Part shown: piece by piece, positions 1,487-45,724 of the stretch | Layout: every line of letters starts with the position of its first letter | Position numbering within the stretch: position 1 is the stretch's first letter | Assembly (NCBI GenBank): GCA_016872875.1 | Contig: VGYW01000004.1 | Location: forward strand, 1-48,900 | Length of the DNA: 48,900 bases | From: Planctomycetota bacterium | GTDB taxonomy: Bacteria; Planctomycetota; PUPC01; DSUN01 | Reading direction: 5' to 3' | The notes under the pieces: generated by a model | What the model was told of the DNA's origin: nothing | Database searches by the model: none | Seen by the model: the letters and a program-made list of their open reading frames with translations, nothing else | Translations under genes and position numbers: made by a program

Positions 1487-3796
1487 TTGGGCCAGGCCAG
1501 ACGGCGGCTCCCCACCTACTGCGTTCGCCAGCACCGCGGCAAGCCGGTGGTGATGCGGGACGGCAGGCCGATTCCTGCCTTCTGCTACAACTACTGCGGG
1601 GCGATGGAGTGGAAGGGGGCGCGGGAGATCATCGCTAAGTTCGCTGCCAACGGCTGCAAGGTCTTCATGGTGCCAGTCCGCGGCGGGGTGGAGAACGACT
1701 ACTGGACGACGCCGTTCTGGACCGATGATGGCGTGTTTCCCGACGTGTCGGCGGACGAGGCCGAGTACTTCGTGGGCGAGATGGTTCACGAGGTGCTCAA
1801 GGCCGTGCCCGACGCGCTGCTCTGGGTGCGCTTCGGGAGCAGCCCGCCCAAGCGCTGGCGCGAGAAGCACCCCGGCGACCTGCTCTTGAACAGCTTCGGC
1901 AAGGTCTACGACGAAGCGTCGCTCGCCTCCGAGAGCTACAACACCCAGCTCGCCCGCTTCATCGAGAACACCGTCCGCTTCTGCGAGCGCCAGCCCTGGG
2001 GCGAGCGGGTCATCGGCTACCTGGTCTACCCCCTCGGCGAGGGCACGACCCAGCTCACCTGCGACGGCTATCTCTTCGACCGCAGCCCCGCGATGCAGAA
2101 GGGCTTTCGCGAATATCTGGCTCGGAAACACCGAGCCGATTCGCTCGATTCGCTCGATTCGCTCGATTCAATCGACTCAATCGATTCGCAGGTTCCCGAC
2201 GACCGCGACTTCCACGAGCGCGGCAAGACCCGCCACGCCGAGGTCTCGACCGATGGCAAGAAGATCGAGCGCATCCCCCGCCGCCTCCACTGGCCCGAGC
2301 CCCAGGAAACCGCCGCCGAGCGCGACTATTGCCTCTACATGCGCGAGCTGACGGGCCGCAACTTCCGCACCATCCTCGCCGCCGTCAAGCGCGCCGCGCC
2401 GAGCAAGCTCGCCGGCATTGACGCCTTCAAGCAGACCCTCCTCGGCTGGCCCCTCGTCGCCCGCTGGGTCGGCGACTACCAGACACACGGCGGCGCCATG
2501 CACCCGGTCAGCGGCGCATTCGCCCTGGCCGAACTCCTCGACCTCCCCGACCTCGACGTCGTCGTGACCCCACACGACTACCTTCACCGCGGCATGGGCT
2601 TCGGCTACGAGGGCGAGGGCATCGGCGACTCCGTCGTCGCCCACGGCAAGCTCTTCTTCGTCGAGGAAGACCAGCGCACGTTATCCCTTTCCGAAGCTGG
2701 CCGCTGGAACTACCTGAAAGACATGAAAGAGGCGAGGGCGGGGCTGTGGCGCAACCTCGGCTCCTCGCTCTCACGCGGCTACAACACCTATCCGATGGAC
2801 GTCTGCGGCCCGAGCTTTTTCATGGACGACGGCATCCAGGAGGTCCTCGCCGCCCGCCGCATCGTCCACGAGGCCGCCCTCGACTGGCCCCGCCGCGAGG
2901 TGCCCTGCTTCGTGATGGTGGTGGACGACTCAAGCGTTATCCACGAGGACTTCACGATCGGCTACCAGTACCTTGCCGTCATCCACCAGCGGCTCTACGG
3001 CCTGTCGAGATGCGGCGTGCCCTTCCGCCTTCACCTGTTCGAGGACCTCGCGCGCGACGACTTCCCCTCCTGCCACAAGGTCTTCCTCTTCCCGAACCTG
3101 TTTTGCGTGACACCCGAACGGCTGGAGCTGTTGCGGCGCAAGGTGTTCCGCAACGGCAACGTCGCCATCTTCGGCCCCGCGAGCGGCATCACAGATGGCC
3201 GCCGCCTCTCCGCCGAAACCGCCACTGAGCTGACAGGTATCCCGCTGGAGCTCGTCCGCAAAGAATCCCCCCGCTTCGTCACCATTGACCGCTTCGACCA
3301 TCCCATCACCAACTCGTTCGCCTCGCGGCTCGACTACGGCGATTCGCTCCCCTACGGCCCGCTCCTCGTCCCTCAGGAGCACCCCCACGTGAAACGCCTC
3401 GGCGGCATCCAGTGGCCCACGGCACGCGACGGGGCGGGGCTGGTCATTCGCCAGATGAAGGGCTGGACATCCGTCTTCACCTGCGCCATGCCGCTGCCCG
3501 CGCCCCTGCTCCGCGAGCTGGCACGCTACAGCGGCACCCACGTCTACAGCGAGTCGGACGACGACCTCGTCTTCGCCGACTCCTGCACCCTCGCCGTCCA
3601 CTCCGTCCGCCCCGGCCGGCGGACCATCAAGCTGCCGAAGCCCTCAACCGTCTGGGACCTCATCGCCCGCCGGAAGCTCGGCGAGGGCCTGACGGAACTG
3701 CGGATCTGGGTTGACCCGCCCCAGACAAAGCTATACTATCTTGGGCGAGGCGATCCATTGAAGGAGGCGAGACGATGGGCTTCCCGGAAAACCTGA
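1487..3796 (+). CDS. Glycoside hydrolase, GH42/beta-galactosidase-like
   Basis: A 769-residue protein that looks like a TIM-barrel glycosidase followed by a glutamine-amidotransferase-like and a beta-sandwich tail, the layout of GH42-type beta-galactosidases. An early barrel strand reads RDGRPIPAFCYNYCG. Candidate catalytic acids are Glu in YPLGEGTTQ (about residue 187) and in LFFVEEDQRT (about 392). The later part (VPCFVMVVDDSS to VFGPASG-like text, about 470-570) fits the trimerisation domain. No signal peptide is seen. The start is uncertain: 1487 is a TTG with only a weak purine run upstream, and an in-frame ATG lies at 1553 after a GTG at 1550. A 52-base tandem repeat is inserted in frame (2138-2189). 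The 3' end overlaps the next gene by 22 bases. Substrate unknown. Confidence 0.72.
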   Translation: MGQARRRLPTYCVRQHRGKPVVMRDGRPIPAFCYNYCGAMEWKGAREIIAKFAANGCKVFMVPVRGGVENDYWTTPFWTDDGVFPDVSADEAEYFVGEMVHEVLKAVPDALLWVRFGSSPPKRWREKHPGDLLLNSFGKVYDEASLASESYNTQLARFIENTVRFCERQPWGERVIGYLVYPLGEGTTQLTCDGYLFDRSPAMQKGFREYLARKHRADSLDSLDSLDSIDSIDSQVPDDRDFHERGKTRHAEVSTDGKKIERIPRRLHWPEPQETAAERDYCLYMRELTGRNFRTILAAVKRAAPSKLAGIDAFKQTLLGWPLVARWVGDYQTHGGAMHPVSGAFALAELLDLPDLDVVVTPHDYLHRGMGFGYEGEGIGDSVVAHGKLFFVEEDQRTLSLSEAGRWNYLKDMKEARAGLWRNLGSSLSRGYNTYPMDVCGPSFFMDDGIQEVLAARRIVHEAALDWPRREVPCFVMVVDDSSVIHEDFTIGYQYLAVIHQRLYGLSRCGVPFRLHLFEDLARDDFPSCHKVFLFPNLFCVTPERLELLRRKVFRNGNVAIFGPASGITDGRRLSAETATELTGIPLELVRKESPRFVTIDRFDHPITNSFASRLDYGDSLPYGPLLVPQEHPHVKRLGGIQWPTARDGAGLVIRQMKGWTSVFTCAMPLPAPLLRELARYSGTHVYSESDDDLVFADSCTLAVHSVRPGRRTIKLPKPSTVWDLIARRKLGEGLTELRIWVDPPQTKLYYLGRGDPLKEARRWASRKT
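2138..2189 (+). repeat. In-frame 9-bp tandem repeat inside the GH42-like gene
   Basis: About three copies of GATTCGCTC are followed by GATTCAATCGACTCAATCG, encoding a run of Asp-Ser-Leu and Asp-Ser-Ile triplets (residues about 218-234). The reading frame continues cleanly on both sides. The unit type matches the other short-period arrays in the window, although here the second half is only partly an inverse of the first. Confidence 0.85.
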
Positions 3797-5061
3797 CGCG
3801 GCGCGGATTCCTTGCCACGGCGGGGGCGCTGGCCGTGGTGCCCAGAAACGCCCTGGGCGGCGAGGCGACACCCCCCAGCGACACGGTGACGGGCGCGCTT
3901 ATCGGGAATGGCGGCCAGGGCAAGGGCTCCTGGGGCGCAATGGGCATCAGGGGCTGCCGCCTCCTCGCCATCTGCGACGTTGACTACAAGCGGGTCGTGG
4001 CGGACCCCAAGGCATTCAAGATGCCACCCGAGGAAGCGGAGAAGGTGGCCAAGGTCACCGACTTCCGCCGGCTGATGGAGATGAAGGACCTCGACGTGGT
4101 GTGCATCGCCACGCCGCCCCACTGGCACGCCCTCATCTGCATCGCCGCGGCGCAGGCGGGCAAGGACATCTTCTGCGAGAAGCCGATGACCAAGTTCATC
4201 GCCGAGGGCCGGGCGGTCGTCAATGCCGTCAAGCGCTACGGCGTCGTCTTCCAGATCGGCACGTTCGGACGCTACGGCCAAGCGAGGGCCGGCCCCTCCC
4301 TCGAGAACCACAAGCTCATCAAGCACGGCCTCCTCAAGGAGCTCAGGGGCGTGGTCCAGCGCGGCACCGTGCCCATGCGGGTCGGGCGGGTGAACCTCGC
4401 GCCGCAGCCGGTGCCGGCGAACCTGGACTATGACCTTTGGCTCGGCCCCGCGCCCTTCAAGCCCTACAACGCAGCGCGGGTGCACTACAGCAACCGCTTC
4501 TACTGGGACTACGAGGGGGGCGACCTGACGAACTTCGGCGCACACAGGGTTGACCCGTTCACCTGGACGTTTGCCAAGGATGACACGGCGCCCGTGGCGG
4601 CCGAGCCCCACGCCCCGCCCGCCCACGACGACGCCGTCGGACCCTGGGGCTGGGTCGAGCTCACCTACGCCGACGGCCTCAGGTTCATCATCGAGAGCGG
4701 CAAGTGGGGCAACAAGTACGACCGCCCCGCCCCGCGCCAGACAGTCACCGCCAAGGACCTTGACGACGAAGGCCGCAAGAAGCTCGCCGAGTTGCCAAAC
4801 CCCGAGCCGCTCGTGAGCTTCGCCGAAGCCATCAGGACCCGCAAGCAGGCCGGCGGCAACGCCGAGGCCGCCCACCGCGGCGTGACCGCGCTCCACCTCG
4901 CCAACATCGCCATCCGCGTCGGACGCAGGGTCCGCTTCGACCCCGTCAAGGAGCAGATCGTCGGCGACGAGGCGGCCAACCGCCTCGTTGACCAGCCCAT
5001 GCGCGAGCCCTGGCACCTGCCGGAACCCCGAACGGCGCAACCCGCGGTCCGTGGGCCGTAG
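3775..5061 (+). CDS. Gfo/Idh/MocA family oxidoreductase, Tat-exported
   Basis: A 428-residue NAD(P)-dependent sugar dehydrogenase-type protein. The N-terminus carries a twin-arginine signal (LTRRGFLATAGALAVV, residues 7-22), as is usual for planctomycete members, so it probably acts in the periplasm. The Rossmann part has IGNGGQGKGSWG and CDVD, then the hallmark CEKPMTKF (about residues 136-143), whose Lys-Pro is conserved in the family. The C-terminal half has the beta-sheet substrate domain (NRFYWDYEGGDLTNFGAH, about 242-259). The start is well set by AAGGAGG at 3760-3766. It overlaps the preceding GH42-like gene by 22 bases, so the two are probably co-translated and act on the same sugar substrate. 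Confidence 0.9.
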   Translation: MGFPENLTRRGFLATAGALAVVPRNALGGEATPPSDTVTGALIGNGGQGKGSWGAMGIRGCRLLAICDVDYKRVVADPKAFKMPPEEAEKVAKVTDFRRLMEMKDLDVVCIATPPHWHALICIAAAQAGKDIFCEKPMTKFIAEGRAVVNAVKRYGVVFQIGTFGRYGQARAGPSLENHKLIKHGLLKELRGVVQRGTVPMRVGRVNLAPQPVPANLDYDLWLGPAPFKPYNAARVHYSNRFYWDYEGGDLTNFGAHRVDPFTWTFAKDDTAPVAAEPHAPPAHDDAVGPWGWVELTYADGLRFIIESGKWGNKYDRPAPRQTVTAKDLDDEGRKKLAELPNPEPLVSFAEAIRTRKQAGGNAEAAHRGVTALHLANIAIRVGRRVRFDPVKEQIVGDEAANRLVDQPMREPWHLPEPRTAQPAVRGP

Positions 5062-8352: not shown

Positions 8353-8371
8353 GATGCGCTCCTTTGCGGGC

Positions 8372-9844: not shown

Positions 9845-9862
9845 TGGCGAAGTGCCTCCTGG

Positions 9863-11287
9863 TCAGGGGTTCTGGAGTCGTGCGAGGACGGCGCGGAGCA
9901 GGTCGGGCGCGGGGGCGAGGAAACGCTCGGCGATGCGGCGCGGCGAGCCGTCGAACGCCTCGAAGCGAAAGGTCAGGAGCGGCTCGGTCACGGAGCAGCG
10001 GGCGAGTGCCCAGCCGTCGGGGTAGGCGACGCGGACGCCGTCAAGCCGCGTGACCTCGCCGGTCGCGGCGGCGGCGAGCTGGTCGAGGCGGGCGGGGCCG
10101 TCGCCCGCGGCGTAGGGCACCCTGATGTCGGGCGTCGTGGCGTAGCGCGGCATGGCGTCCACGAGTGCCGAGAGCGGCTGGCCGCACTGCCCGGCCAGCT
10201 CGGCGGCGCGGAGGATGCTGTAGAGGCCGTCGTCGCCGCCCTCGAGCTCGCGGTAGAAGAAGTGGCCGCTGAGCTCGCCGCCGAAGGCCGCGGCCTCGGC
10301 GATCATCCGGGTCTTGATGAATGTGTGGCCGGAGCGCTCCAGGAGCGGCGTGGCGCCGCCGGCCGCCACCGCGTCGAGCACCGCCCGCGAGCACTTGATG
10401 TCGAGCACAACACGCTCCGAGCTTCGAGCCACGAGCTTCGAGCTTCCTGCCTCCTGAGGCTCGCAGCTCGCAGCTCGCGGCTCGCGGCTTTCTTTTCCGA
10501 GCAGATGCTGGGCGAGGAGGATGATGGCCTGGTCGCCGGTGAGGGGGCGGCCGAGGTCGTCCACGATGGCCAGGCGGTCGCCGTCGCCGTCGAGGGCGAC
10601 GCCGAGTGCGGCGCGGCACCGGGGCACGGCGTCGCACAAGGCGCCGAGGTTCTCGCGCACCGAGGGGTTGGGCGGACGGTTGGGGAATGTGCCGTCGGGG
10701 GTGCAGAAGAGCTCGGACACGTCGTAGCCGAGTGGCCGCAACACGCGGGGCGCCAGCTCGGAGAAGGCGCCGTTGCCGCAGTCGAGGGCGAGCCGCAGCC
10801 CGCGGCCCTGCCGGGCGGTGGAGCGGAGCCAGCCGGCGTAGTCGGCGTCCACCGCGAGGCGCCGCACGCTCCCGTGCCCCGCGGCGAAGCGACGGGCGGC
10901 GAGGGCCTGCTCCACGCGAGCCATCTCCTCCTCGGTGACGGGCATCGGGCCGAGGGCGAGCTTGAGGCCGTTGTCGCCCGCGGGGTTGTGGGAGGCGGTC
11001 ACGATGGCGAGGCCGTCGGGGCGGAGGCGTCGGGCGGCGAAGTAAGCGGCGGGGGTGGGGGCCATGCCGAGGTCAGTCACGCGGCAGCCTGTGGCGGCGA
11101 GGCCCTCGACGAGTGCCCGCTGGAGCGATGGCGTGCTGGGGCGCACGTCCCCCGCCACGACCACGCTGGGGGCATCGGCCCTCTCGCGGAGGACGGTGCC
11201 GATGGCGCGGCCCAGGTCGGCGTAGAGGCGCTCATCCAGCTCGGCGGGATAGGCCCCTCGGATGTCGCAGGCCTTGAAGATGCTCAT
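9863..11287 (-). CDS. manB: Phosphomannomutase/phosphoglucomutase
   Basis: A 474-residue hexose-phosphate mutase that interconverts hexose 6-phosphate and 1-phosphate through a phosphoserine, feeding nucleotide-sugar and envelope polysaccharide synthesis. The start at 11287 gives the usual opening MSIFKACDIRG. Motifs: phosphoserine loop TASHNPAGDNG (about 97-107), metal site DGDGDRLAIVD (about 237-247), sugar-specificity loop GGELSGHFFYRE (about 335-346) and phosphate loop RCSVTEPLLTFRFEA near the end. A repeat encoding about 26 extra residues lies in frame between the metal loop and the sugar loop (10410-10492), just before VVLDIKCS. Longer starts upstream would have to read through the TCGTCC element and are not credible. 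A manB versus algC-type assignment cannot be settled by eye. Confidence 0.9.
   Translation of the reverse strand: MSIFKACDIRGAYPAELDERLYADLGRAIGTVLRERADAPSVVVAGDVRPSTPSLQRALVEGLAATGCRVTDLGMAPTPAAYFAARRLRPDGLAIVTASHNPAGDNGLKLALGPMPVTEEEMARVEQALAARRFAAGHGSVRRLAVDADYAGWLRSTARQGRGLRLALDCGNGAFSELAPRVLRPLGYDVSELFCTPDGTFPNRPPNPSVRENLGALCDAVPRCRAALGVALDGDGDRLAIVDDLGRPLTGDQAIILLAQHLLGKESREPRAASCEPQEAGSSKLVARSSERVVLDIKCSRAVLDAVAAGGATPLLERSGHTFIKTRMIAEAAAFGGELSGHFFYRELEGGDDGLYSILRAAELAGQCGQPLSALVDAMPRYATTPDIRVPYAAGDGPARLDQLAAAATGEVTRLDGVRVAYPDGWALARCSVTEPLLTFRFEAFDGSPRRIAERFLAPAPDLLRAVLARLQNP
10410..10492. repeat. In-frame GAGCTCG-type inverted array inside the mutase gene
   Basis: The left arm has repeats of CGAGCTTCGAGC type and the right arm repeats of CTCGCAGCTCGCGG type. 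Between them is a short core containing CCTGCCTCCTGAGG. The arms are inverse to one another with some divergence. Translated with the gene, it adds a stretch of about 26 residues rich in Ser, Glu, Arg and Ala (REPRAASCEPQEAGSS and onward) at a loop between domains. Confidence 0.8.
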
Positions 11288-11328
11288 GGGGAGTGGGACT
11301 TGCTTGCCCTCTGATGTGGTTGCTCTTG

Positions 11329-11424
11329 AATCGTCCTCGTCCTCGTCCCTCGTCCTCGTCCTCGACTCTTCTCCACTGCGCCAGCGAGGGGAATCGAGGA
11401 CGAGGGACGAGGACGAGGACGATT
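11329..11424. repeat. TCGTCC-type inverted array (copy A) between ftsH and the mutase gene
   Basis: A 96-base element. The left arm (11329-11365) begins AATCGTCCTCGTCCTCG and the right arm (about 11394-11424) is its inverse and ends GAGGACGATT; the two arms match almost perfectly over 31 bases. The core (about 11366-11393) holds TCTTCTC and GCGAGGGG. It fills most of the 149-base gap between the ftsH stop and the mutase start. Copy B inside argS has the same arms and a related core. Confidence 0.93.
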
Positions 11425-16617: not shown

Positions 16618-16652
16618 AATCGTCCTCGTCCTCGTCCCTCGTCCTCGTAATC
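16618..16652. repeat. TCGTCC-type array (copy C), single arm
   Basis: Begins AATCGTCCTCGTCCTCG and ends CCTCGTAATCG. It matches the left arm of copies A and B, but no inverted arm follows. It sits about 85 bases before the argS start, on the same strand. Confidence 0.85.
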
Positions 16653-18558: not shown

Positions 18559-18648
18559 CCCGTGCCGCGTGCCGCGTGCCGCGTGACAAGAGAAGCCCCC
18601 ACTTGCGGTTGCCTTTTCCGGTCACGCGTCACGCGTCACGGGTCACGA
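18559..18648. repeat. CACGCGT-type inverted array between argS and the DedA-like gene
   Basis: The left arm has GCCGCGT units (CCGTGCCGCGTGCCGCG) and the right arm CACGCGT units (GTCACGCGTCACGCGTC), inverse in part. The core contains AAGAGAAGCCCCC. It starts a few bases after the argS stop and fills most of the 109-base gap before the next start. Confidence 0.88.
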
Positions 18649-30094: not shown

Positions 30095-30181
30095 TGTCTC
30101 GCTCCCACGCTCCGCGTCGCGCACACGGGACGCGGAGCGTCCCGCCGCCTGCGTTCCCACGCAGAGCGTGGGAACGAGAGG
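30095..30181. repeat. REP-like palindrome
   Basis: Two nested inverted words: CGCTCCCACGCTCCGCGTC and GACGCGGAGCG on the left and TTCCCACGCAGAGCGTGGG on the right. Similar 'GTTCCCACGCTCTGCGTGGGAACG' sequences occur in many Gram-negative genomes (family knowledge). Confidence 0.6.
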
Positions 30182-30185
30182 GCTT

Positions 30186-30264
<79 letters not shown>

Positions 30265-30272
<8 letters not shown>

Positions 30273-31840: not shown

Positions 31841-31927
31841 GCGTGCCGCGTGCCACGTCCCGCGTGCCCAGAGGGAAGCGGCGGTTGGGGTCTTCTCTGG
31901 GCACGCGGGACGGGGCACGCGGCACGT
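31841..31927. repeat. CACGCG-type inverted array
   Basis: The left arm has GCGTGCCGCGTGCCACG (31841-31857) and the right arm GGGGCACGCGGCACGTC (31912-31928). The core contains TCTTCTC (31891-31897). It sits between the TonB-like stub and the DUF4159 start. Confidence 0.85.
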
Positions 31928-33400: not shown

Positions 33401-33436
33401 GGAACAGTGCCTTGCTAGAGTCTGGTAAACGGGGCA

Positions 33437-33537
33437 CGGGATGGGTGGATGAATGGATGTATGGATGAATGCAAGAGCAAGCGGGCTGCTTGGCCTGTTC
33501 TTTCACCCATCCATTCATCCACCCATCCATTCATCCT
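33437..33537. repeat. ATGGATGA-type inverted array (copy 1)
   Basis: The left arm has GGGTGGATGAATGGATG units (33440-33471), the right arm CCATCCATTCATCCACC units (33507-33537), and the core is about 33 bases and contains TGCAAGAGC. It lies between the ExbB and first ExbD genes. Confidence 0.9.
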
Positions 33538-33545
33538 CTCCTCGG

Positions 33546-34193
33546 TCACTGCCTCACTCCGGCTCTCGTGGCAATCAGGTCGAGGAGCTCGGAGGAGGCT
33601 TCGTCAATCTCGAGCTCGATGCGGTTGGACATTGCGGTGAAGATGTTGTAGGGGATGACGGCGGCGAGGGCGATGAGGAGTCCCGCCGCGGTGGTGATGA
33701 GTGCCTCGGCGATGCCGGAGGCCACGCCGCTGGCCTCGACGCCCGCGGCGGAGAGCGCGCCGAACGACGTGATCATGCCCGTCACGGTGCCCGTCATGCC
33801 GAAGAGCGGGGCGGCGCTGCCGACGGTGGTGAGGACGGTGAAGCGCTTCTCGACGGCGTTCATTGCGTGCTGGGTGTAGTCGCCCATCGCCTTCTCCATG
33901 ATGGCGAGGAGCGATTCGACGCGGGAGGCGAGCGGGTGGTGCTTGGCGTAGGACTGTAGGCCCGCGAGGAGGACGGCTGCGACTGGGCTGGGCGTGGTGG
34001 CGCAGAGCGCCGCCGCCTCGTCCACCCGCTCCTCCTCGATCATGTCCAGCACCTTGGCGCGCAGCGCGCGGGTGTCGGTCTTGTTGTGCCGGTAGAAGGC
34101 CAGGCCGCGGTCAATCAGCACCGCGATCGTGAAGATGCTGCACAGCAGCAGCGGCACCATCATCGTGCCGCCGTCAATGAGCAACTGCAACAT
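33546..34193 (-). CDS. exbB: MotA/TolQ/ExbB proton-channel family protein
   Basis: A 215-residue protein. The start at 34193 (MLQLLIDGG) has AGGAG about 11 bases upstream; longer starts would run through the ATGGATGA array. Three membrane segments fit the family (about 11-29, 106-133, 156-183). The conserved stretch TVGSAAPLFGMTGTVTGMI precedes the third segment. With the two ExbD proteins downstream it should form an inner-membrane proton channel that powers movement or transport at the outer membrane. Confidence 0.9.
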   Translation of the reverse strand: MLQLLIDGGTMMVPLLLCSIFTIAVLIDRGLAFYRHNKTDTRALRAKVLDMIEEERVDEAAALCATTPSPVAAVLLAGLQSYAKHHPLASRVESLLAIMEKAMGDYTQHAMNAVEKRFTVLTTVGSAAPLFGMTGTVTGMITSFGALSAAGVEASGVASGIAEALITTAAGLLIALAAVIPYNIFTAMSNRIELEIDEASSELLDLIATRAGVRQ

Positions 34194-34218
34194 AGGGAGC
34201 GTTCTCCTGTTTGTCAGG

Positions 34219-34311
34219 GGAGGATGAATGGATGAATGGATGGGTGGATGGATGTCAGAATCGAGGCACTGGTCTTGCATTCATCCAAGCATCCATTCAT
34301 CCATTCATCCC
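34219..34311. repeat. ATGGATGA-type inverted array (copy 2)
   Basis: The left arm has GGATGAATGGATGAATGG units (34222-34251) and the right arm CATCCATTCATCCATTC units (34287-34308). The core carries TCTTGCATTC, a variant of the TGCAAGA word of copy 1 on the other strand. It separates the ExbB start from the stop of the next gene. Confidence 0.9.
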
Positions 34312-34312
34312 C

Positions 34313-34735
34313 TCATTCGGTGGTGCGGTCTGCCAGTATCTGGGCCAGCAGTTGATAGCCCTCGACCGGGGGCATTCGGAGGCCGCGGGCGTGGTGGTGC
34401 TGCGCCGGGGCCAGGACCAGCTCGCCGGTGACGGGGTTGTAGGTGCTCTCCTGAAGGCGGGAGAAGGGGATACGCTCAGTGTGGGGCCGCGGCCCGTGGG
34501 CCACGAGGGCCAGCTCGCGGCGCAGCGCGAAGGCCCACAGCCGGCCTGGGCCGAGCCAGCTCCCTACGTCCACGCGGCTATCTGTCCTCACGGCGAGGAA
34601 CACCTCCTCGGCTCCGAGGAAGTCCTCGGCCAACTGCCGCTCGGCCCTGGACATGGCGGCGAACGCCCCGCCCGGGCTTTCGAGCCGGGTGGTGAGCGCA
34701 GAGGGGAGCTCGGTGGTAAGCATGGAGGCGGTCAT
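34313..34735 (-). CDS. Small protein of the TPR-Exb locus, unknown function
   Basis: A 140-residue protein without signal peptide or membrane segment. It contains RTDSRVDVGSWLGPGRLWAF and ALVAHGPRPHTERIPFSRLQ, and a His-rich stretch (APAQHHHARGLRM). I do not recognise a family. It lies between the giant TPR gene and the ExbB gene in the same orientation. The pattern (a short fold that reads like a PH-type or Tudor-like 'RLWAFALRRELALVA' strand) is only suggestive. Confidence 0.6.
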   Translation of the reverse strand: MTASMLTTELPSALTTRLESPGGAFAAMSRAERQLAEDFLGAEEVFLAVRTDSRVDVGSWLGPGRLWAFALRRELALVAHGPRPHTERIPFSRLQESTYNPVTGELVLAPAQHHHARGLRMPPVEGYQLLAQILADRTTE

Positions 34736-34746: not shown

Positions 34747-34856
34747 CATTTTCGATTTTCGATTTTTGATTGAAGTCGAAAGCCTGGGGCTCAGGCCCGC
34801 AGCGCGACCGAGAGGAGATCGAAAATCGAAAATCAAAAATCGTAAATCAGAAATCG
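34747..34856. repeat. AAAATCG-type inverted array
   Basis: The left arm reads CATTTTCGATTTTCGATTT (34747 onward); the right arm (34817-34855) has GAAAATCGAAAATC units. The core contains CCTGGGGCTCAGGCCC. The right end lies one to two bases from the stop codon of the giant TPR gene, so it follows that gene on its strand. Confidence 0.9.
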
Positions 34857-37800
34857 TCACTTTCCATCCTCAGTGTCGCTGATGCGCATGAGGGCTTCCT
34901 CGGTGAGGCGGCCGCGGGCGAACTTGGCCCACTTGCTGGCCGGGTAGTCCCACGTGAGGCGCTTGAACTGGCGATAGGCGTTCACGGGGTCACCGCGCTT
35001 GAGATGGGTGTCGCCGCACCAGTACATGGCCTCGGCGATGAGGTCGGGCTCGAGCTTGGCGTTTCCGGTCACGCCCTTGAGGACTTCGATGGCCTTGGTG
35101 TGGTCCTCGGCCTGCATGTAGCACTGGGCGCTGAGGAGGAGCGTGCGCCCCGCGAGGCGATGGTTGGGGAAGCGGACGGCGAGGCGGCCGAACACCTGGG
35201 CGGCGGTCTTGTGCATCTCGCGGGCCTGCATCTCGATCTTCTCGCGCTCGACGGGGGGCACCTCTGGGGTGGCCTTGGCCTTGATCTCCTTGCCCTTCGA
35301 GAGGAAGTACTGGCCCAGGCGGGCGATGGTCTCGGCCACGAGCTCGTTGTCGGGGTAGCGGTAGGATAGCTTGACGTACTCCTCGCAGGCCTGGTCAATG
35401 AGGCCCATCTTCTCGTAGACGAGGGCCTTCTTGTACTGGGCCTTGGGCGCGTAGGGGCTGTCGGGGTAGGCGGCCACGATGTCGGTGAAGCGCCCCGCGG
35501 CCTCGAGGTAGCTCTTCTTCTTCACGTCGGCGTCCTTCGCCTCGTTTGCGGACTCGAGTGCCAGGTCGGCCAGGAGGTAGTCGGCCTGGGCGCGGGCCTC
35601 GGTGTCGGGGAAGTCGCGCACGGCCTCCTCGAGGAGCTTCTTGCCCTGGGCGATCTCGGAGCGGGCGAGGTCCTCCTGGCCCAGCTCGCGGTGGCGCTTG
35701 GCCAGCTCGAAGTAGGCCTCGGCGATGGAGAACTGGGTCTGGACGGCGATCTGGGGGTCGGAGAAGCGCTTGGTGAAGGGGACCACCTGGCCGTCGCTGC
35801 CCTTGTGGATGGCCACGGTGTGCTCGAGCTTCTCCTCGGGTGCCCGCCCCGCGGGCGCGGCGCGGGTGTAGACGGCGGTGACGGCGTCGCCGTAGGCGAC
35901 CTGTACGGCGGCGGCGCCCTCGCCCTTATCGCCCTTGAAGGCAAGCTTGACCGAGCCCTTGAAGGTGCCGGAGTGGGTGAAGGTCTCGCTGAGGTTGAGC
36001 TCCTGGGTGGCGCCGGAGGCGACCCTGAGGGTGACGGGCACGGCGTCCTTCTCGTCCGATGTGTCGCGGATGGGGTCAATCACGCGGAAGTGGAGGCTCT
36101 CGCCCACGTAGGCGGTCTCGACCGTCTCGCGGAAGCGCGGGTCGGTGACGTCGAAGAAGGCGTCGGCCTGGAGGACGGCGCGTGCGGTGGCCCAGTGGCT
36201 CTTGCCGGCGGGGTCCTTGGCCTCGAAGCCGATGAAGAGCTCGTCGTTGCCCTTGATGGCCAGGACTGGCCGCTCCTTGCCCTCGGGGTCGAGGTCCACG
36301 AGGGGCCTTTCGGGCAGCTTGCCCAGCTCGGCGGGGATGGAGAAGGTGAAGCGGCCGTCCTCAAGGGCGTCGCCTGCGAACGGGCTGGCCTTCACGGTCA
36401 CGCTCTTGTAGCCAGGCGGGGCTGGGCCGCCGGCGGCGGCGTTGCCCGGCCTGGCCTCGAGCTTCAAGGTGCCTGGCACCTTGAGGTCGAAGGCGCCCTC
36501 CGCCGGCTTGCCGAGGGCCTTGCGGCCCGAGGAGGTCTGGACGTATAGCGCGGCGGCGCTCTCGGGCGACTGCGCGATGTAGGGGAACATGAGCTCGACG
36601 ATGATCGGTCCGCCGATGAAGACGGTGGCGGGCTTCGCGGGGTCGGGCTTCTCGGGCCAGGAGGCGGTGAGTGCGCGGGTGACGGGCACTTCTTCTTCGG
36701 CCGCGGTGGGCGGGGCCACACGCGGGACGCCTGTGCCACCAATACCTGTGCCACCAACGCCTGCGCCACTCACGGGGCGCGGTGGCACAGGCATCTTGCC
36801 TGTGCCCTGGGCAGGCAGACCAGTGGCGGGGCGTTCTTCCTCGGTGAGAGGCCGGGACGTGACCTCGTAGACGGCCAGGCGCGGGGGCGCCCAGACCGTT
36901 TGCTCCACCGTCGCCACGCGGTCCCACGGGATGCCGGGGTCGGTGTTCTCCTTGTCCTGGTAGGCCACGAGGACGTCGTCGCCCTGGGCGACCTTGAGCT
37001 CGCTCTCGCGCTTGGGGTCGGCGGCGACCGGGAAGATGCCGCCGACGAAGACGCCCGAGTGCTCGGCGGTCTCGAGTGCGGCGCACTCGACCGGCTTGCC
37101 CTCCTGCGTCCGCGCCGTGAACTTCACGGTGTCAGGCTTCGCCGTCGTGTCGCAGTCGGGGTCGTTGATGTAGACGTTTATCTTGTCGCCCGGCTTGAAG
37201 CGCCGCATGGGGATGTAGCGCGGGCGGCGATTCGCCCCTTCGCCGCTGAACTCGACGAAGCAGGCGCTCAGCGCGGCATTGTGGAACGTGGCGGCGAGGC
37301 TGGCCTCGTGGACCTCGCGGCCCTCCGTGATAACCCGCGGGTCCTCGTAGGTCACTGTGATCTTGTCGCCAGGGACAACTTCGAGGACCTGGTTCTTGCG
37401 CAGGGCGGCGAAGTCCTCCTTGGTGGGGAGGAGCGTGGCGCCGGCGGCGTCGGCGAGCGTGATGCGGTTGATGGCCGGGGCGTCGGTCTCGAAGTCGGCA
37501 AGGATGAGGCGGACGACGCGTGCGCGGGCCTCGGGCGGGAAGGTGATGTCGAAGGCCGCGTTGTCCTGCCCCGCGGCGATCTTGGCGGGCTTGAGGGCGA
37601 CCCCCTCGCGGACCTGGGGGTTCTTGGCGGCGTCGAACATCTCGGCGGGGACTGGCCGCATGAAGGGCGGCTCGTCGGCGTCGGCCTGGAGCTCGAAGGC
37701 CGGCTCGGCCTTGCGGCTGGCGAAGACGTAGAGGTCCACACGGTGCGCCCCCTTGCCCAGCGAGCGGCGCACCCTGGTGGGCGAGTCGCCCGGCTGGCCG

Positions 37801-40800
37801 TCCACGGTGAGGACGTAGCGGATCACAGGCGGGACGCCTGTGCCACCGCCAGCGGGCTTCTTCTCGGGCGCTTTCTCCTTAGGCGCCTTCTCCTTCGGCT
37901 CTTTCTCCTTCGCCGCTTCTTCCACGGGGACGATCTCCAGGGTGCGCACCTTGCGGAGGGGCTGGTAGAAGGCGCCGTAGAGGTGGGCGATGTAGAAGCT
38001 GCCCGGCCCGTCCTCGGCCAGGCCCATCGAGTGGGCCTGCCCCTCAAGCGAGGCGTCCCACTTGGCGGCGAACGCCTTGGCCGGGACGACGGTCTTGGGG
38101 GTGTTGTTCTTGAGGTAGCCGATTTCGAGGTATTGGCGGAAGTCGGCGAATGTGGCCGGGCCGCCGGTCACCGGCCCGTGCTTGACCAGTTCGAGGGTCA
38201 GGGCGCCCTCCCAGGGCTTGAGCTCGCCGGGCCACTGGGCAAGCGTCGTGAAGTCCCTGCCGTTGAGCGAGGTCTGGAGGAAGAACCTCTTGAGCTTGCG
38301 GCCGGGCACGCTCGCCTGGATGGCCATCTTGCCGAGGGCCACGTTGTCGTTGAGGTCAATGCTGAAGAGCTTGGGCGTGGAGAGGTCGTTGAGGCCGACC
38401 CAGGCCGGGTAGTCGCCCTTCGAGATGGCGAAGTTGGGGTCCTTGCCGTCCTCGGAGTCGGAGGCGAAGGCGATGGGCTGCCCGGCGCTGGTCTGGACGA
38501 CGCCCTCGAAGACGCCGGTGTGGGAGCCTGTCTCTTCGAGCGGGAAGGCGGAGATGGCGTCGCCGCTGGAGGTGGCCACGCGGACGGCGAGCTTGTCCCT
38601 GCCCGCGGTCTCGCTGCGGTCGGGGTCGATCACGCGGATGTTGAACTTGCTGCCCGGCTTGAGCTGGTTGGCGGCGCGGACGGTGCTGAGCGCGACGTCC
38701 TCCTTCACGGGCTTCTCGGTCTCCACCTCCTTGAGCTTGCTGCGGATCATGTCCTCGAGCGCCTTGGCCTCGATCTCCTCCTTCGAGAGGATTCTGCCGG
38801 AGGAGACGTAGAGGTCGGAGTCCGTGGCCACGCTGAGGGTCTGCGGCTCGGCCATGACCAGCTTGTGCTCCCTCTTGAACTTCTCCGAGTAGTCGTAGTG
38901 GGTAGTGTCCTTGCCGAGGAGCTGGAGCTTGCCGTCGCCCTTCGCTGTGGGCGCCAGCTCGGTCGGAATCTGCCCGACGAACCGGGTCTTGGAGTCCCCG
39001 AACGGGGTCAGGGTGAAGTGCTCCTCATCCCCGGAGTCCGACCAGGCGCGAATCTCGATGTGCGCGGAGGTGCCGACGACTGCCAGGTTGCGGTCCTCGA
39101 GGTTCACCTTGAGGGGCTTGCCGGGCACGATGAAGCGGCGAGCGGTGGCGGTGCCGACCTGTAGCTCGGTGGGCTCTTCGAGCTTGCGGAGGCGGACCTT
39201 CGTGCGGCCTTCGAGGATGCGGCCGAGCGCGTGGTCGGGCACGCGGGAGAGCACCTGGTCAACCTGTTCGAGGACCTCGCGGTACTCCTCCTGGTCGAAC
39301 TTCACGAGCGCGAGGTGGTAGAAGCTCTCGGCCTGGACCGCCTTGTCCTTGTGGTGGGTGAGCTTCTCGAGGCGCTTGATGGCCTCATCGAAGCGGCGGG
39401 TCAACCTGTCCACCTCGGCCACCTTGATCTCCGCGTCCACCTGGCCGCCCGTGCCGTCGAACTCCTTGCCCGTGGCGATGCGCTCGAAGAGCGCCCTGGC
39501 CTTTGGATATTCCTGGCGCCCGAGCGAGATGCTCGCGTAGGCGAGGAGCAGGCGGGCGCGCGTCTCAGGCGCGAAGCCGTCGGCCACGGAGTCGAACCAC
39601 TGGATCATCTGGCGTGCCAGGGCCTCCGCCGCGTCGTAGTCGCCCACCTCCGTGTTCTTGTCTATCAGCCACGTGGTGAACGCCGGGTCGAGCTCCTTGT
39701 AGCTGGCGAGGACTACCGCCCGCCGCGGGAGGTAGAGTTCCCAGGCGTTCTGGAGGCGGCCGGACAGGTAGGCCACCTGAGCGGAGAAGAGCGGGTAGCG
39801 GCGGTCGTCGCGCGGGACGGGGATGACGCTTCCGACCGTGGAGAGGGTCTTGGTGCGTGTGGCGTTGAGGGCGGAGCGTGCCTCCAAGGGCAGGTCGGCG
39901 CCCACGAGGTCGAGGCCCACCGAGGCGAAGACGAGGCCGAGGTCCTGCGGCACGGCCGAGGCCCCCTGCGCGGCGTCCACAAGTTGTCCGGCCAGGCGCG
40001 CGAGGTCGTGCTGGAACTGCACGCTGCGGGTGTCCTTGGCGATCTTCCAGGCGTGGGGCACGACGGCGTAGAGGTCGGCGCCGCGCTCCTGGGCCAGGCA
40101 GCCCTGGATGAGCGTGGAGGCCAGGAGGTCGAAGCCCCAGCGGTCGGGCCACGAGGCCGGCACGCAGGAGGGGAAGAGACCGAGAAGGACGTCGAGCTCA
40201 TCTTTGGCGAGTTTCTTAGGGTCACCGAGCTTGTCGAGCTGGGTGAGGAGGGGCGGGCCGATCCGCTCGGGCGTGTTGCGCACGCGGTCGGCGTAGGTGG
40301 CGAGGCGGGCGAAGAAGTCCTTGCGGCCCTGCGGCGTCTCCACAGCCGCGGGCGGCTGTGCCACGAACCAGGCGCGGCCCATCGCGTAGGTGTCGAAGCG
40401 GGTCTTGCCATAGGCGGCCTCGAGCCTGGCGAGCATGGCGTCGCGTGCCGCCGGCTCGGCGCCCTGGGCGCGGGCCTGCCAGTTCCAGAAATCGCCGCGC
40501 GAGTAGACCGGGCCATCGGCGTCGGAGCCGATAGGACTCGACGATGACGACGAGAACGAGGGAAGGGTGTCGAAGCCCTGGAGGAGCTTGGCGGCGGCGT
40601 TCACGACCTTCTTCTTCTCGTCGAGGCCAAAGTCCCAGTAGCGCCAGTCCAGGTACTTCGTCCTGTTGGCCTCCTCGACGAACATGTCGTCGAAGTAGCG
40701 CTCGACGGGGAACTTGTCGTTGAGGCGCGGGAACTCGTTGCGGATGAGCCACTGGTAGGTGCAGGTGGCGCTGCGGGTCGGAACGTCCCGCAGGTTTGGA

Positions 40801-43187
40801 CCCTGCGGGAGGATAGCGAACGCCCGCTTCTCGACGATGGCGGCCATGACCGACTCGCCCTGCTGGGGCGCGGTCCAGCCGTCGCCCTGCCGCGTGCCGC
40901 GGAAGGCGTCGAAGAGGAAGGGGGAGAAGCGCCCCTTGTCCAGGAGCGCGGCGAGTGCGCGCCCGAGGGCGCCGTTGAGGACGAGTGTGCGCTCGCGGAA
41001 CTGCCTGGGTGCGCGCCCGAAGCCCTTGTCGCCCTGCACCCTGGCCGCGGTCTCGCAGAGCTCCTCGATGCGCGGGTTGGGCGCGGCGGGGTCGTAGCGC
41101 GCGAGCTGATCAGCAAGAACTTCGGCCTGGACCTCCGCTTTCTCGATGCCGTCCTGACGGTTGGCGAGCACGGCGAGGAGGGCGGCGCGCCCGAACGGGG
41201 TCTTCTTCGCCTCGTAGTCCCGCAGGAGCGGGTAGAGGGCGCGGGCCTGGGCGAGGAACTCGTCCTGGTTGCGGTTGTGCTCGGCGAGCAGGGCGGCGGC
41301 GAGGGCCTGGCACAGCGGGTTCGGGGCCTTCTTCGGCTCGCCCTCCGAGTCGGCCGCCTTGCGCATCGCCTCCTCGACGGGGACGATCTGCTTGATGAGC
41401 TCGGGCTTGACGGTTGAGCCCTTGGCGCGCGACTCGCGGCGCAGCCACTCCGCCCAGTCACGGAAGCGCGGGTGGACCTTGTTCACCATGTCCCTGCGCT
41501 CGCGCTTGTCGTAGGGCACCCACTGGAAGGAGCCTGCGACGGCGATCATCTTGGACTTATCGTTGCGGTCCGCGCCTGAGCCCAGCTCCCAGGCGGCTTC
41601 CAGGTAGGCCCCCATCGAGCGGGGGTCGAGCGCGCCGGGGGTGCTGGCCAGCTCGGCCCCGAAGTGGGCCACCACCTGATGGTGGAAGTTGTCGGGCAGC
41701 TTCCTCCCCTCCTTCTCGGCGAGGGCGCGCAAGGCGGGCAGCATCTCGCCGTCGAGGAGCTCGTATGCCTCGCCGAACCCCAGGTGCCACGACTCGTTGC
41801 GGATGAGGTGCTCGACGCACTTGAGCGGGTCGTCGCTTGCGGCCATGGAGTTGATTGCCGCGGCGTCGCGCGAGGGAACGCCCTGGAGGAAGGCGGCCTG
41901 CTTCCTGTAGAGGTCGCGCGTCTCGGGCCTGGTGACGAAGCGCAGGTGGCGCGTGGCCTGGCTCTTGCGGAAGAGGTCGGGGTGCTTCGCGCCGAGGTCC
42001 GCCCACTGCTCGCGGCTGGCGAGGAGGCGGGCGACGTAGCCGCCGCGCGGCAGGCGCCACTCGAGCACCGCCTGGCGGTCGGCGTCCGAGAGCTTCTGGA
42101 ATGCCTGGACGAAGAACTCGCTCTTCTGCTGCTCCTGCTGGCGCCAGGCCGCTTCGTCAATGCCCTCGCCCACGCCGCCGTCGGTGAAGGCGTGGACGAT
42201 GTCCTTGAGCGTGGCGGCGCTGGGGAAGGCGTCGAGGTAGGCCCCGGCTGCGATGGCCACGGCCTCGAATGCCTTGTCGAGGGTCGGCTTGTCCTTGCCG
42301 GCGGCGCCGGCCTTGAACTCCAGGTTCGCCACGTGGAGCGCGAAGCGGAGCTGGCGGCGCTTGTCCCCGCGCACCATGCCGAGCAGCTTGCGGCAGTGTG
42401 GCAGCGCGGCGAAGTGCTCCTGCTGGCCCCGCACGGCCTCGGCCATCAGCCAGTCGAGGTGTTCCTGGAAGTAGAGGCGTTCCTGCTCGAGCGGCAGGGC
42501 GGGCTGGCTGAGGACGATTGTGAGCCAGCGGGCGCCGCCCGCGAAGTCGCGCTTGCGCCGCGCCGTGTCGAGATACCAGGAGTCGAACTTCCGTGCGGCC
42601 ACCTTCGCCCTGCACTTCTCGCCCAGGGTGGTCATGGTCTCGTAGAGCTCGCCGGGCGCGTCGAGGAAGTCGGCCAGGATGGCATAGAGCGCCGCAGCCC
42701 CGTCGGAGGCGTCGGGGGCGGGCGGGTTGGCGGCGAGGAACTGCTTGTAGCGCGCGGCGGCGGAGCGGAGGTCGCCGGCCAGGAACGCGCCCTCGGCGGC
42801 CATGCGGAGGATGGGCGGCGACGGGCGGAAGTTCTGGGCGAGGTACGCCTTCACCGCGATGGAGGCCGCGTAGCAGCGGCCCAGCCGCCGCCCGGTCGTC
42901 AGCAGCTCCTTCACCTGCTCCTCCGTCACGCCGGCCGGGTCGGTCTGCACCTTCAGCAGGAGCTGGTCGAAGGGGCTGTCGGGCGCGGGCGCCGCCTTGG
43001 GCGCGGGTTCGGCTGTGGCCTTCGCCTTCGGCGGCGGCTCCGCCGGACCCTTCTCCTTAGCCTTCGGTTGGCCCGCCAGCGCCAGGGCGGAAGCTAGGAG
43101 CAGCACGGCGATTGCGGATTGGCGATTGCGGATTGCGGATTGAAATCCGAAATCCGAAATCCGAAATCCGAAATGAGGCTTGCGCAT
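34857..43187 (-). CDS. Giant secreted TPR protein (2776 aa) with repeated beta-sandwich modules
   Basis: The start at 43187 is supported by AAGGA eight bases upstream and a signal peptide (about 26-39, AVLLLASALALAG). The N-terminal part (about 60-1200) is mostly alpha-helical, TPR-like. At least three related modules follow, with the pattern 'D-x-D-x-(D)-T-x-x-x-x-D' then 'ET..H(T/S)G.F.G': near residues 1512 (RVIDPDRSETAGRD, HTGVFEG), 2001 (NDPDCDTTAKPD, HSGVFVG) and 2364 (RVIDPIRDTSDEKD, HSGTFKG). A fourth, weaker one is near 1350. A C-terminal block (about 2540-2770) has clear TPRs (YAPKAQYKKALVYEKMG). In-frame repeats lie at 36723-36806, 37824-37844, 40529-40558 and in the signal region. 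It probably forms a long periplasmic scaffold; this is inference. Confidence 0.82.
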   Translation of the reverse strand: MRKPHFGFRISDFGFQSAIRNRQSAIAVLLLASALALAGQPKAKEKGPAEPPPKAKATAEPAPKAAPAPDSPFDQLLLKVQTDPAGVTEEQVKELLTTGRRLGRCYAASIAVKAYLAQNFRPSPPILRMAAEGAFLAGDLRSAAARYKQFLAANPPAPDASDGAAALYAILADFLDAPGELYETMTTLGEKCRAKVAARKFDSWYLDTARRKRDFAGGARWLTIVLSQPALPLEQERLYFQEHLDWLMAEAVRGQQEHFAALPHCRKLLGMVRGDKRRQLRFALHVANLEFKAGAAGKDKPTLDKAFEAVAIAAGAYLDAFPSAATLKDIVHAFTDGGVGEGIDEAAWRQQEQQKSEFFVQAFQKLSDADRQAVLEWRLPRGGYVARLLASREQWADLGAKHPDLFRKSQATRHLRFVTRPETRDLYRKQAAFLQGVPSRDAAAINSMAASDDPLKCVEHLIRNESWHLGFGEAYELLDGEMLPALRALAEKEGRKLPDNFHHQVVAHFGAELASTPGALDPRSMGAYLEAAWELGSGADRNDKSKMIAVAGSFQWVPYDKRERRDMVNKVHPRFRDWAEWLRRESRAKGSTVKPELIKQIVPVEEAMRKAADSEGEPKKAPNPLCQALAAALLAEHNRNQDEFLAQARALYPLLRDYEAKKTPFGRAALLAVLANRQDGIEKAEVQAEVLADQLARYDPAAPNPRIEELCETAARVQGDKGFGRAPRQFRERTLVLNGALGRALAALLDKGRFSPFLFDAFRGTRQGDGWTAPQQGESVMAAIVEKRAFAILPQGPNLRDVPTRSATCTYQWLIRNEFPRLNDKFPVERYFDDMFVEEANRTKYLDWRYWDFGLDEKKKVVNAAAKLLQGFDTLPSFSSSSSSPIGSDADGPVYSRGDFWNWQARAQGAEPAARDAMLARLEAAYGKTRFDTYAMGRAWFVAQPPAAVETPQGRKDFFARLATYADRVRNTPERIGPPLLTQLDKLGDPKKLAKDELDVLLGLFPSCVPASWPDRWGFDLLASTLIQGCLAQERGADLYAVVPHAWKIAKDTRSVQFQHDLARLAGQLVDAAQGASAVPQDLGLVFASVGLDLVGADLPLEARSALNATRTKTLSTVGSVIPVPRDDRRYPLFSAQVAYLSGRLQNAWELYLPRRAVVLASYKELDPAFTTWLIDKNTEVGDYDAAEALARQMIQWFDSVADGFAPETRARLLLAYASISLGRQEYPKARALFERIATGKEFDGTGGQVDAEIKVAEVDRLTRRFDEAIKRLEKLTHHKDKAVQAESFYHLALVKFDQEEYREVLEQVDQVLSRVPDHALGRILEGRTKVRLRKLEEPTELQVGTATARRFIVPGKPLKVNLEDRNLAVVGTSAHIEIRAWSDSGDEEHFTLTPFGDSKTRFVGQIPTELAPTAKGDGKLQLLGKDTTHYDYSEKFKREHKLVMAEPQTLSVATDSDLYVSSGRILSKEEIEAKALEDMIRSKLKEVETEKPVKEDVALSTVRAANQLKPGSKFNIRVIDPDRSETAGRDKLAVRVATSSGDAISAFPLEETGSHTGVFEGVVQTSAGQPIAFASDSEDGKDPNFAISKGDYPAWVGLNDLSTPKLFSIDLNDNVALGKMAIQASVPGRKLKRFFLQTSLNGRDFTTLAQWPGELKPWEGALTLELVKHGPVTGGPATFADFRQYLEIGYLKNNTPKTVVPAKAFAAKWDASLEGQAHSMGLAEDGPGSFYIAHLYGAFYQPLRKVRTLEIVPVEEAAKEKEPKEKAPKEKAPEKKPAGGGTGVPPVIRYVLTVDGQPGDSPTRVRRSLGKGAHRVDLYVFASRKAEPAFELQADADEPPFMRPVPAEMFDAAKNPQVREGVALKPAKIAAGQDNAAFDITFPPEARARVVRLILADFETDAPAINRITLADAAGATLLPTKEDFAALRKNQVLEVVPGDKITVTYEDPRVITEGREVHEASLAATFHNAALSACFVEFSGEGANRRPRYIPMRRFKPGDKINVYINDPDCDTTAKPDTVKFTARTQEGKPVECAALETAEHSGVFVGGIFPVAADPKRESELKVAQGDDVLVAYQDKENTDPGIPWDRVATVEQTVWAPPRLAVYEVTSRPLTEEERPATGLPAQGTGKMPVPPRPVSGAGVGGTGIGGTGVPRVAPPTAAEEEVPVTRALTASWPEKPDPAKPATVFIGGPIIVELMFPYIAQSPESAAALYVQTSSGRKALGKPAEGAFDLKVPGTLKLEARPGNAAAGGPAPPGYKSVTVKASPFAGDALEDGRFTFSIPAELGKLPERPLVDLDPEGKERPVLAIKGNDELFIGFEAKDPAGKSHWATARAVLQADAFFDVTDPRFRETVETAYVGESLHFRVIDPIRDTSDEKDAVPVTLRVASGATQELNLSETFTHSGTFKGSVKLAFKGDKGEGAAAVQVAYGDAVTAVYTRAAPAGRAPEEKLEHTVAIHKGSDGQVVPFTKRFSDPQIAVQTQFSIAEAYFELAKRHRELGQEDLARSEIAQGKKLLEEAVRDFPDTEARAQADYLLADLALESANEAKDADVKKKSYLEAAGRFTDIVAAYPDSPYAPKAQYKKALVYEKMGLIDQACEEYVKLSYRYPDNELVAETIARLGQYFLSKGKEIKAKATPEVPPVEREKIEMQAREMHKTAAQVFGRLAVRFPNHRLAGRTLLLSAQCYMQAEDHTKAIEVLKGVTGNAKLEPDLIAEAMYWCGDTHLKRGDPVNAYRQFKRLTWDYPASKWAKFARGRLTEEALMRISDTEDGK
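36723..36806. repeat. In-frame repeat, 15-base units plus inverted word, giant TPR gene
   Basis: Three units like GCCTGTGCCACCAAT (36730-36774), then the inverted word GGTGGCACAGGC and CTTGCCTGTGCC (36781-36806). In the protein it gives a Gly-Val-Gly-Gly-Thr run (about residues 2128-2155). Confidence 0.85.
37824..37844. repeat. In-frame single copy of the same palindromic word, giant TPR gene
   Basis: CACAGGCGGGACGCCTGTG with flanks; it matches the word at 36723-36806. It reads as GGTGVPPVI in the protein. Confidence 0.8.
40529..40558. repeat. Degenerate TCGTC-like tract, giant TPR gene
   Basis: On the coding strand TCGTTCTCGTCGTCATCG codes a short Ser run (about residues 878-884). It may be a decayed arm of the TCGTCC family or simple slippage; the match to the family is partial. 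Confidence 0.5.
43107..43175. repeat. GGATTGC/GAAATCC inverted array, in the signal-peptide region of the giant TPR gene
   Basis: GATTGCG-type units (43109-43141) are followed by four GAAATCC units (43142-43175). The two halves are inverse with diverged units. It encodes residues about 5-26, between the start codon and the hydrophobic signal core. Confidence 0.88.
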
Positions 43188-43205
43188 TTGCCATTCCTTG
43201 TCGGA

Positions 43206-43323
43206 AGGGACCAAAGGGACCTCAGGGACCAAAGGGACAAATGCCCGCCCCACGGCCTCTGCCTCTTGGCACGCGGGACGCGGCACGGGTCGTCTCTTCT
43301 CACGCGTCACGGGTCACGCGTCA
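43206..43323. repeat. GGGACCAAA run and CACGCG-type array between two TPR genes
   Basis: Four nine-base units like GGGACCAAA (43206-43241), then a CACGCG-type array (43267-43323: GGCACGCGGGACGCGGCAC, then CACGCGTCACGGGTCACG). The second includes TCTTCTC (43295-43301), and its end supplies the TGA stop of the TPR gene at 43321-43323 (read on the minus strand). Confidence 0.85.
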
Positions 43324-45630: not shown

Positions 45631-45657
45631 CCAGAGGGCTCCTGTCACTGCGATCAG

Positions 45658-45724
45658 AAGTCAAAAGTCAAAAGTCAAAGGTCAAAAGTCAAAAGTCAAA
45701 AATCGAAAATCGAGAATCGAAAAT
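45658..45724. repeat. AAAAGTC/AAAATCG direct array between two TPR genes
   Basis: Six seven-base units of the AAAAGTC type are followed by AAAATCG units, all in one direction. It lies a few bases from the stop of the next TPR gene. Confidence 0.88.

Follow-up and report, generated by a model that had tools for sequence, protein, structure and literature searches.

The window analysed here is a 48,900-nucleotide stretch of a Planctomycetota bacterium (positions 1 to 48,900 of contig VGYW01000004.1, assembly GCA_016872875.1) that carries numerous arrays of short tandem words, including hairpins in which two inverse word arrays flank a core. Judged by sequence comparison with relatives and phages, it is the layout of the inverted word-array hairpin that persists at a site while its sequence keeps changing. 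The account that we prefer, to which we give a probability of roughly 0.47, is that palindromic elements are copied into tolerant sites, after which rewriting in word register changes their arms.

Merging the rows of Tandem Repeats Finder (TRF; period 6–9, score of at least 40) gives 26 tandem stretches of 6–9 bp units in the window, where about 0.1 would be expected; two sets of 60 Markov sequences as long as the window, of order 1 and order 3, average 0.08 and 0.12 stretches respectively, with a maximum of 2. Over periods 4–12 the best period is 7 at 13 loci, 6 at seven, and 8, 9 and 12 at three each. Inverted pairs are found at nine loci, beginning at 10410, 11329, 18177, 18559, 31841, 33437, 34219, 34747 and 43107, and single direct arrays at 2137, 16620, 25957, 27668, 27813, 27905, 30185, 43205 and 43300. 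An earlier note on this DNA had estimated about fifteen inverted loci; nine stand, the remainder being single or adjacent arrays, and the layout is real at all nine of the examples that it gave, with coordinates correct to within a few bases. A purpose-made counter of inverted arms no shorter than 20 nt reports seven window loci and none in 15 order-3 Markov sequences, and six of the seven (11329, 18177, 31841, 33437, 34219 and 34747) are arrays listed in that note. The seventh, at 30097–30179, is an inverted repeat with 21-nt arms that adjoins a TCACTC array. When folded as RNA, eight of ten elements are much stronger than their shuffles (z-scores of -4.6 to -9.7), the weak folds being those of 43107 (z -1.62) and 45654–45724 (z +1.13); Rfam has no match at its gathering score across the window.

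The copying of whole elements is seen in the TCGTCC family, in which the element at 11329–11424, in a spacer, and that at 18177–18271, within argS, match in 82 of 104 columns over their entire length, and their cores are alike on their own (p=0.0025). For this family, the proposal that arm and core are homologous between distant sites is thus upheld. Core homology across families with different units was also considered (18559 with 33437, p=0.005; 31841 with 33437, p=0.0175; 11329 with 34747, p=0.035), and fails correction for the 28 pairs tested. An exact TCGTCC 25-mer is absent from the viral contigs, and a plasmid search with 33420–34340 returns a single weak match. When the arms of seven loci are cut into words, constant and variable columns emerge, as in NCGAGCY and GATGNRTG. 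At three of these loci words are more alike within an arm than between arms, and the two arms have different consensus words (TCGAGCT and GCGAGCT at 10410, CGCGTGC and CGCGTGA at 18559, ATTGCGG and ATTTCGG at 43107), so that each word pairs in the stem with about one mismatch. This greater likeness within arms suggests that each arm has been homogenised separately, while the other four loci keep an inverse copy.

Homologous proteins show what the same site looks like in relatives. The array at 10410–10492 (minus strand), of GAGCTTC and GAGCTGC words, lies in frame in the phosphomannomutase gene (9863–11287) and encodes part of a linker whose counterpart in many homologues is empty: among 24 aligned proteins the linker has 7–12 residues in 13 and 16–85 residues in 11. 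The longer linkers are of differing kinds, with the GAGC words of the window, AAFRP pairs, PLP(x)GEG pairs, and, in the 85-residue linker of P0141, a GAATGCC-type heptad peptide nested at the protein level within a PLPPGEG-type pair, which appears to place an inverted element within a second one. A tree of 32 rows (29 labelled), built with the linker left out, has nine changes of linker type and five between empty and filled; the filled linkers all fall within a single clade of 18, empty rows being interspersed among them, and AAFRP-type peptides occur at several separated places. Tested blind for periodic coding DNA, the window array scores 0.92 at lag 7, and P0141 likewise 0.92, relative to a mean of 0.53 and a third-highest value of 0.81 for 300 random peptides at lag 7; the test is lenient, as linkers are scored at their best over many windows and four lags and the null over single windows, and several linkers come up to 0.81, the upper edge of the null. 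The argS site varies from 14 to 56 residues among 21 aligned homologues; we also considered the serine-rich linkers in relatives as TCGTCC insertions, an assignment that protein without DNA does not permit. At the 2137 site the stretch is shorter in six of 14 aligned proteins (P0242–P0247, 89%) and native-looking in most of the others. The existence of empty sites excludes slippage within fixed, old arrays as the sole process.

A second series of orthologous sites comes from cellular genomes and starts from the word GATTTCG. Three tandem copies of it occur in four of 296 genomes of the phylum of G001 (labelled a Saprospiraceae metagenome-assembled genome, and the one that contains locus L006), and in one of 296 for the backward control. 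In G031 these copies lie 3′ of rpoB (Pfam Rpb2 domains) and upstream of a gene that we take to be rpoC. An rpoB match is present in 38 of 40 relatives, from which 30 loci were taken and 27 spacers read, L132, L134 and L136 being dropped where the gene edge was not found. Eleven of the 27 contain a significant array at lag 7, two are array-like (L118 and L146, not significant at p=0.109 and 0.214), three have a bare hairpin (L141–L143; the p=0.045 of L141 at lag 8 arises from the hairpin itself), and 11 have neither words nor a strong hairpin. The words in the significant spacers, read by eye, are GCGGAAT/GGATTTC, GCTGTTG, GAATGTC, CGACACT-like, GGTTGGGAGTTG-like, GCGGAGT and GGATTTT, and fall in about seven families; GCGGGTT and GGACTGA are read in the two non-significant spacers, L118 and L146. 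On the rpoB tree there are ten changes of family, four between hairpin and none, and five between words and none, with labels assigned partly by eye and the count of ten taking in L118 and L146. Upstream of a uroporphyrinogen decarboxylase gene (Pfam URO-D), a short repeat is significant (p ≤ 0.01) in six of 25 relatives of genome G256, comprising AAATCCG in G256 itself, AAATCTA, AAATCAG, a CAAACCT-like word and two at lag 9 or 10; five of 30 loci (L089, L103, L104, L108 and L110) were dropped where the gene edge was not found. The null for the rpo, decarboxylase and G256 word tests is a mono-nucleotide shuffle, which is lenient. We also note that in L082 (G256) arrays reach from the 3′ part of an open frame with the C-terminus SEIGNPKSEIQ into the beginning of the URO-D gene, in frame in both, and that in L079, L081 and L073 a GATTTCG array lies just 3′ of an NPFNP motif in several genes and encodes DFGFRISDFG-like residues; NPFNP is presumably a type IX secretion tail.

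Phages contain the same class of array. Twelve viral contigs contain (GATTTCG)3GATT, a string of the right-arm word at 43107; among them L014 and L022, and L016, L018 and L023, are near-identical. In L015 the string lies in a gene that we take, from its motifs, to encode a terminase, and which has no PHROG or Pfam match. Across this gene family the linker contains a significant array in five of 18 distinct sequences (L041, L046, L049 at lag 9, L050 and L054), with different words in each; L041 was picked for its array and the others were not. Within each of the sister pairs L050/L056 and L052/L054 only one member has the array. The linker tree has seven changes, a count that takes in L042 and L044, which are array-like by eye and not significant (p=0.34 and 0.13). 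In a second gene, that of L037 (terminase large subunit, PHROG), there are AAATCCG words at a place where L039 shows CGGACA and GATTCAC words and L038 shows none that are obvious. At the three sites sampled in relatives, namely the phosphomannomutase linker, the phage linker and the rpoB–rpoC spacer, we therefore do not see the pattern that the earlier note had set against movement, in which arrays are shared site by site with only slippage differences and no site is empty. Exchange of arms, for which that note had proposed looking, is seen in one phage contig, L017, where three elements share the left arm AAGGATG and the core AAAAAGAC, and the right arm is TTCATCC at one element and TCACCTTG/TCACCGTG at two. 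Between 4915 and 12700 of L017, arrays lie shortly upstream of the starts of genes and are similar to the Shine-Dalgarno word (AAGGTGA, AAGGATGA).

Dispersal within one genome is seen in G256, in which there are at least 45 matches to the array element of L080, several of them near full length, with 40 of 115 candidates scored; this element has a match of 0.53 at lag 7, compared to a shuffle maximum of 0.36. The same genome contains three related copies of 205–207 bp with 15-bp terminal inverted repeats, of which two have 5-bp direct duplications (TAGTA and TAACA); a search for the terminal repeat with no more than one mismatch gives seven matches, these being the three pairs and one single end. 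By these comparisons there are two behaviours, in that a relative of the word palindromes rides in G256 on a unit resembling a miniature inverted-repeat transposable element (MITE), and the G031 and G180 elements stand alone.

We suggest that the arrays are non-autonomous palindromic elements. A word-armed hairpin would be copied into a tolerated place, either a spacer within an operon or a flexible protein linker, as some families show. Slippage and mutation in word register would then spread one variant along an arm, as comparison indicates at some loci, such that words drift, arms may diverge and single-arm remnants stay. Turnover of sites by loss, regrowth and new insertion could leave sister genomes with the same layout and other words, and the copying itself may proceed through the hairpin or word microhomology during replication or repair, or through an enzyme acting in trans. 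No enzyme for copying was identified; among the 20 window proteins scanned with Pfam (of 27 called at 60 or more residues) there is no transposase family, and no Y1_Tnp domain of the kind that, along with a GTAG or CGTC tag, marks repetitive extragenic palindromes and their associated tyrosine transposases (REP/RAYT). We invoke copying into new places because of the empty sites, the nested insert, the distant copies with their core, the exchanged arms and the G256 copies, and we invoke the making or rewriting of arms in place because of the arm-wise words, the 7-nt register, the bare hairpins, the drifted orthologous spacers and the elements unique to a genome. The proposal that these are a mobile or copied element type is accordingly retained in part: empty sites, other words at one site and the TCGTCC copies speak for it, and the lack of an enzyme and of target duplication at the nine window elements against. 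A broader formulation, in which an element class would inherit its layout (core hairpin, inverted arms and 7-nt word register) and not its sequence, with the words of each arm rewritten by replication or repair and the palindrome copied between sites and between phages and bacteria, such that the words at one orthologous site would keep changing, seems to us rather unlikely.

Several observations weigh against copying followed by rewriting. At four of the seven word-cut loci words are equally or more alike between arms than within them. No flanking direct repeat above chance, as a target duplication would leave, is found at the nine window elements, whose arms are themselves the inverted repeats. 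Neither G031 nor G180 has a second full copy, with the same core, of its rpoB–rpoC element. The orthologous spacers of G031 and G323 are 70% alike with different words, and three rpo families start alike, with TTGCGG after the rpoB stop (L117, L118 and L137–L139), so that some of the family changes counted above may be drift in place and not insertions; by the G031 and G323 alignment, some word change is of this kind. Arrays are unchanged in six pairs of near-identical phage contigs (99.7–100%), and slippage is thus not fast. Comparisons at the protein level alone cannot show DNA ends. Finally, the word pattern is weak in the three terminal-repeat copies of G256 (best-window p of 0.06 to 0.16; match at lag 7 of 0.35–0.39, with shuffle means of 0.27–0.28 and maxima of 0.37–0.40), which ties mobility to relatives of an array and not to a clear array, and for this reason we weight copying with rewriting lower, and growth in place higher.

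Such growth in place would have a native hairpin stall synthesis, with the new strand slipping or switching template in steps of about 7 nt, such that matching words pile up on both sides and nothing moves; favoured heptamers would explain the recurrence of words. The prevalence of period 7 is consistent with this, both in the window (13 loci) and among phage loci, for which there are 32 TRF rows and many of which were picked for their array, nine Bacteroidota loci having no row of period 6–9. Consistent too are the wordless rpoB–rpoC hairpins of L141–L143 alongside word arms around different cores, the uniqueness of the G031 and G180 elements in their own genomes, the resemblance of the G031 and G323 spacers to a single array whose words have drifted, and the L041 phage array, which begins at ATCCG, a sequence that L046 has at that place as well. 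We nevertheless regard it as possible but doubtful, since the same element and core recur at 11329 and 18177, near full-length copies are dispersed in G256 and relatives there have terminal repeats, AAFRP-type peptides occupy separated places in the tree, and P0141 has a nested insert. Alternatively, hairpins in operon spacers might be kept for processing or stability of the transcript, with the fold alone selected and the sequence free. Among window spacers of at least 25 nt, an array is present in nine of 13 co-directional, one of four convergent and two of three divergent spacers, which together with the strong folds of eight of ten elements, and the rpoB–rpoC spacers labelled with words (13 of 27) or a bare hairpin (three of 27), favours such a role; but the inserts within argS, the phosphomannomutase gene and phage genes, the 11 of 27 rpoB–rpoC spacers without a strong hairpin, the single arms, and the arms with mismatched words make it improbable. 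The material is mostly metagenomic, and an artefact of assembly or binning might be suspected, but the same class is found in phage contigs and in genomes of different sources, and identical arrays recur in separately assembled contigs, so that we consider this extremely improbable. Copying with rewriting thus remains the reading that we prefer, and the orthologous sites with empty, bare-hairpin and several-word states provide a comparative series on the birth, growth and movement of arrays, which also supply housekeeping enzymes with new in-frame linkers.

The window genes, from a simple codon-based call, include by Pfam argS, a phosphomannomutase gene, an AAA/M41 protease, a MotA/TolQ/ExbB-type gene and TPR genes, and homologues of ArgS (P0009, 75%) and phosphomannomutase (P0122, 78%) are labelled Planctomycetota bacterium; a contig scan with ArgS yields nine distant ArgS loci, all labelled as Bacteroidota groups. 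Inverted pairs are confined in the window to co-directional spacers or gene interiors, and three arrays lie in frame inside called genes: the phosphomannomutase array, a single 9-bp array (CGATTCGCT) at 2137–2189 (plus strand) in gene 1547–3796, whose stretch varies in length among the 14 aligned relatives, and the second TCGTCC element, on the plus strand in argS (16736–18556), before the DALR domain. The first TCGTCC element (11329–11424), in a co-directional spacer, has perfect 30-nt arms and a 36-nt core. Lone arms of this type occur in divergent spacers at 16620–16648, with the left border TCCCAATCG common to 18177, and at 25957–25992. Just 3′ of the argS stop is an inverted CGTG-word array (18559–18648) with arms that differ by about one base per word. 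The inverted CGTGCCG array at 31841–31927 has arms that are 97% complementary and an RNA fold of -77.7 kcal/mol (z -9.66). Inverted 8-bp GATG-word arrays are found at 33437–33537 and 34219–34312, alike in their arms and with a core likeness that is not significant (p=0.09), and an inverted GATTTTC array at 34747–34856 fills the spacer adjoining gene 34857–43106. At 43107–43175 is the inverted pair of GATTGCG and GATTTCG words, nearly coreless, followed by a single 9-bp array (AAGGGACCA) at 43205–43238 and a short single CGTG-type array at 43300–43323. The other arrays are a single TCACTC array in a co-directional spacer (30185–30269), TCAAAAG and AAAATCG arrays side by side and lacking a hairpin (45654–45724), and three clustered single word arrays (27668–27928). 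These last lie in a convergent spacer of 1461 nt (27511–28971) that contains the unrelated arrays GGTGTTC, GTTTCGC and CACAGAGGG as well as ATCCGCG-like words. Two nested inverted repeats (I8 and I23) at 47914–48056 were not flagged as tandem arrays.

The short heptad arrays of Cyanobacteria, the short and long tandemly repeated repetitive sequences (STRR and LTRR), are similar to those of the window, which are likewise dispersed tandem heptads, mostly in spacers, as in heptameric simple sequence repeats; the GGGNATC or GGGGANT words of the Xanthomonas and Nostoc type are absent among the window TRF units. A literature search with five array strings found no relevant paper, which does not prove absence from print. 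Earlier reports of heptad arrays give no mechanism (PMC4692102, PMC4679880). The GGGAATC heptamers of Xanthomonas and GGGGA(C/T)T heptamers of Nostoc have constant and variable positions, are dispersed and of unknown function, and resemble the window arrays as 7-bp words mainly between co-directional genes, single or in inverted pairs; however, that study concerns one word class with 83% of sites common to two species, whereas here there are many words in 49 kb and differing words at one site (PMC4692102). The TAACTGA repeats of Beggiatoaceae, some Cyanobacteria and Bacteroidetes are also heptads near gene starts, some of them intragenic, with a patchy distribution, suspected transfer and no evident mechanism, but consist of one word, for which the main genome has 169 direct sets and a single indirect repeat (PMC4679880). 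Replacement of one word by another at the same orthologous site is not described in the sections of these two papers that were consulted, and we make no wider claim about the literature. The Rickettsia palindromic elements are palindromic by name, comprise several families and insert in frame within genes, as the argS and phosphomannomutase elements do within housekeeping genes, but are about 150 bp, with tandem-word arms unmentioned in the part of the source at hand (PMC10969869). Borg tandem repeats occur in spacers and genes, have independent origins and encode disordered stretches, but are perfect direct repeats with intragenic units divisible by three, and an inverted word layout goes unmentioned in the text available (PMC9879509). 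Nearest to the G256 copies is the BrickBuilt MITE of Porphyromonas, a tandem repeat within an inverted-repeat mobile element, which differs in its 23-nt direct unit and from the window elements in their lack of target duplication (PMC4596501).

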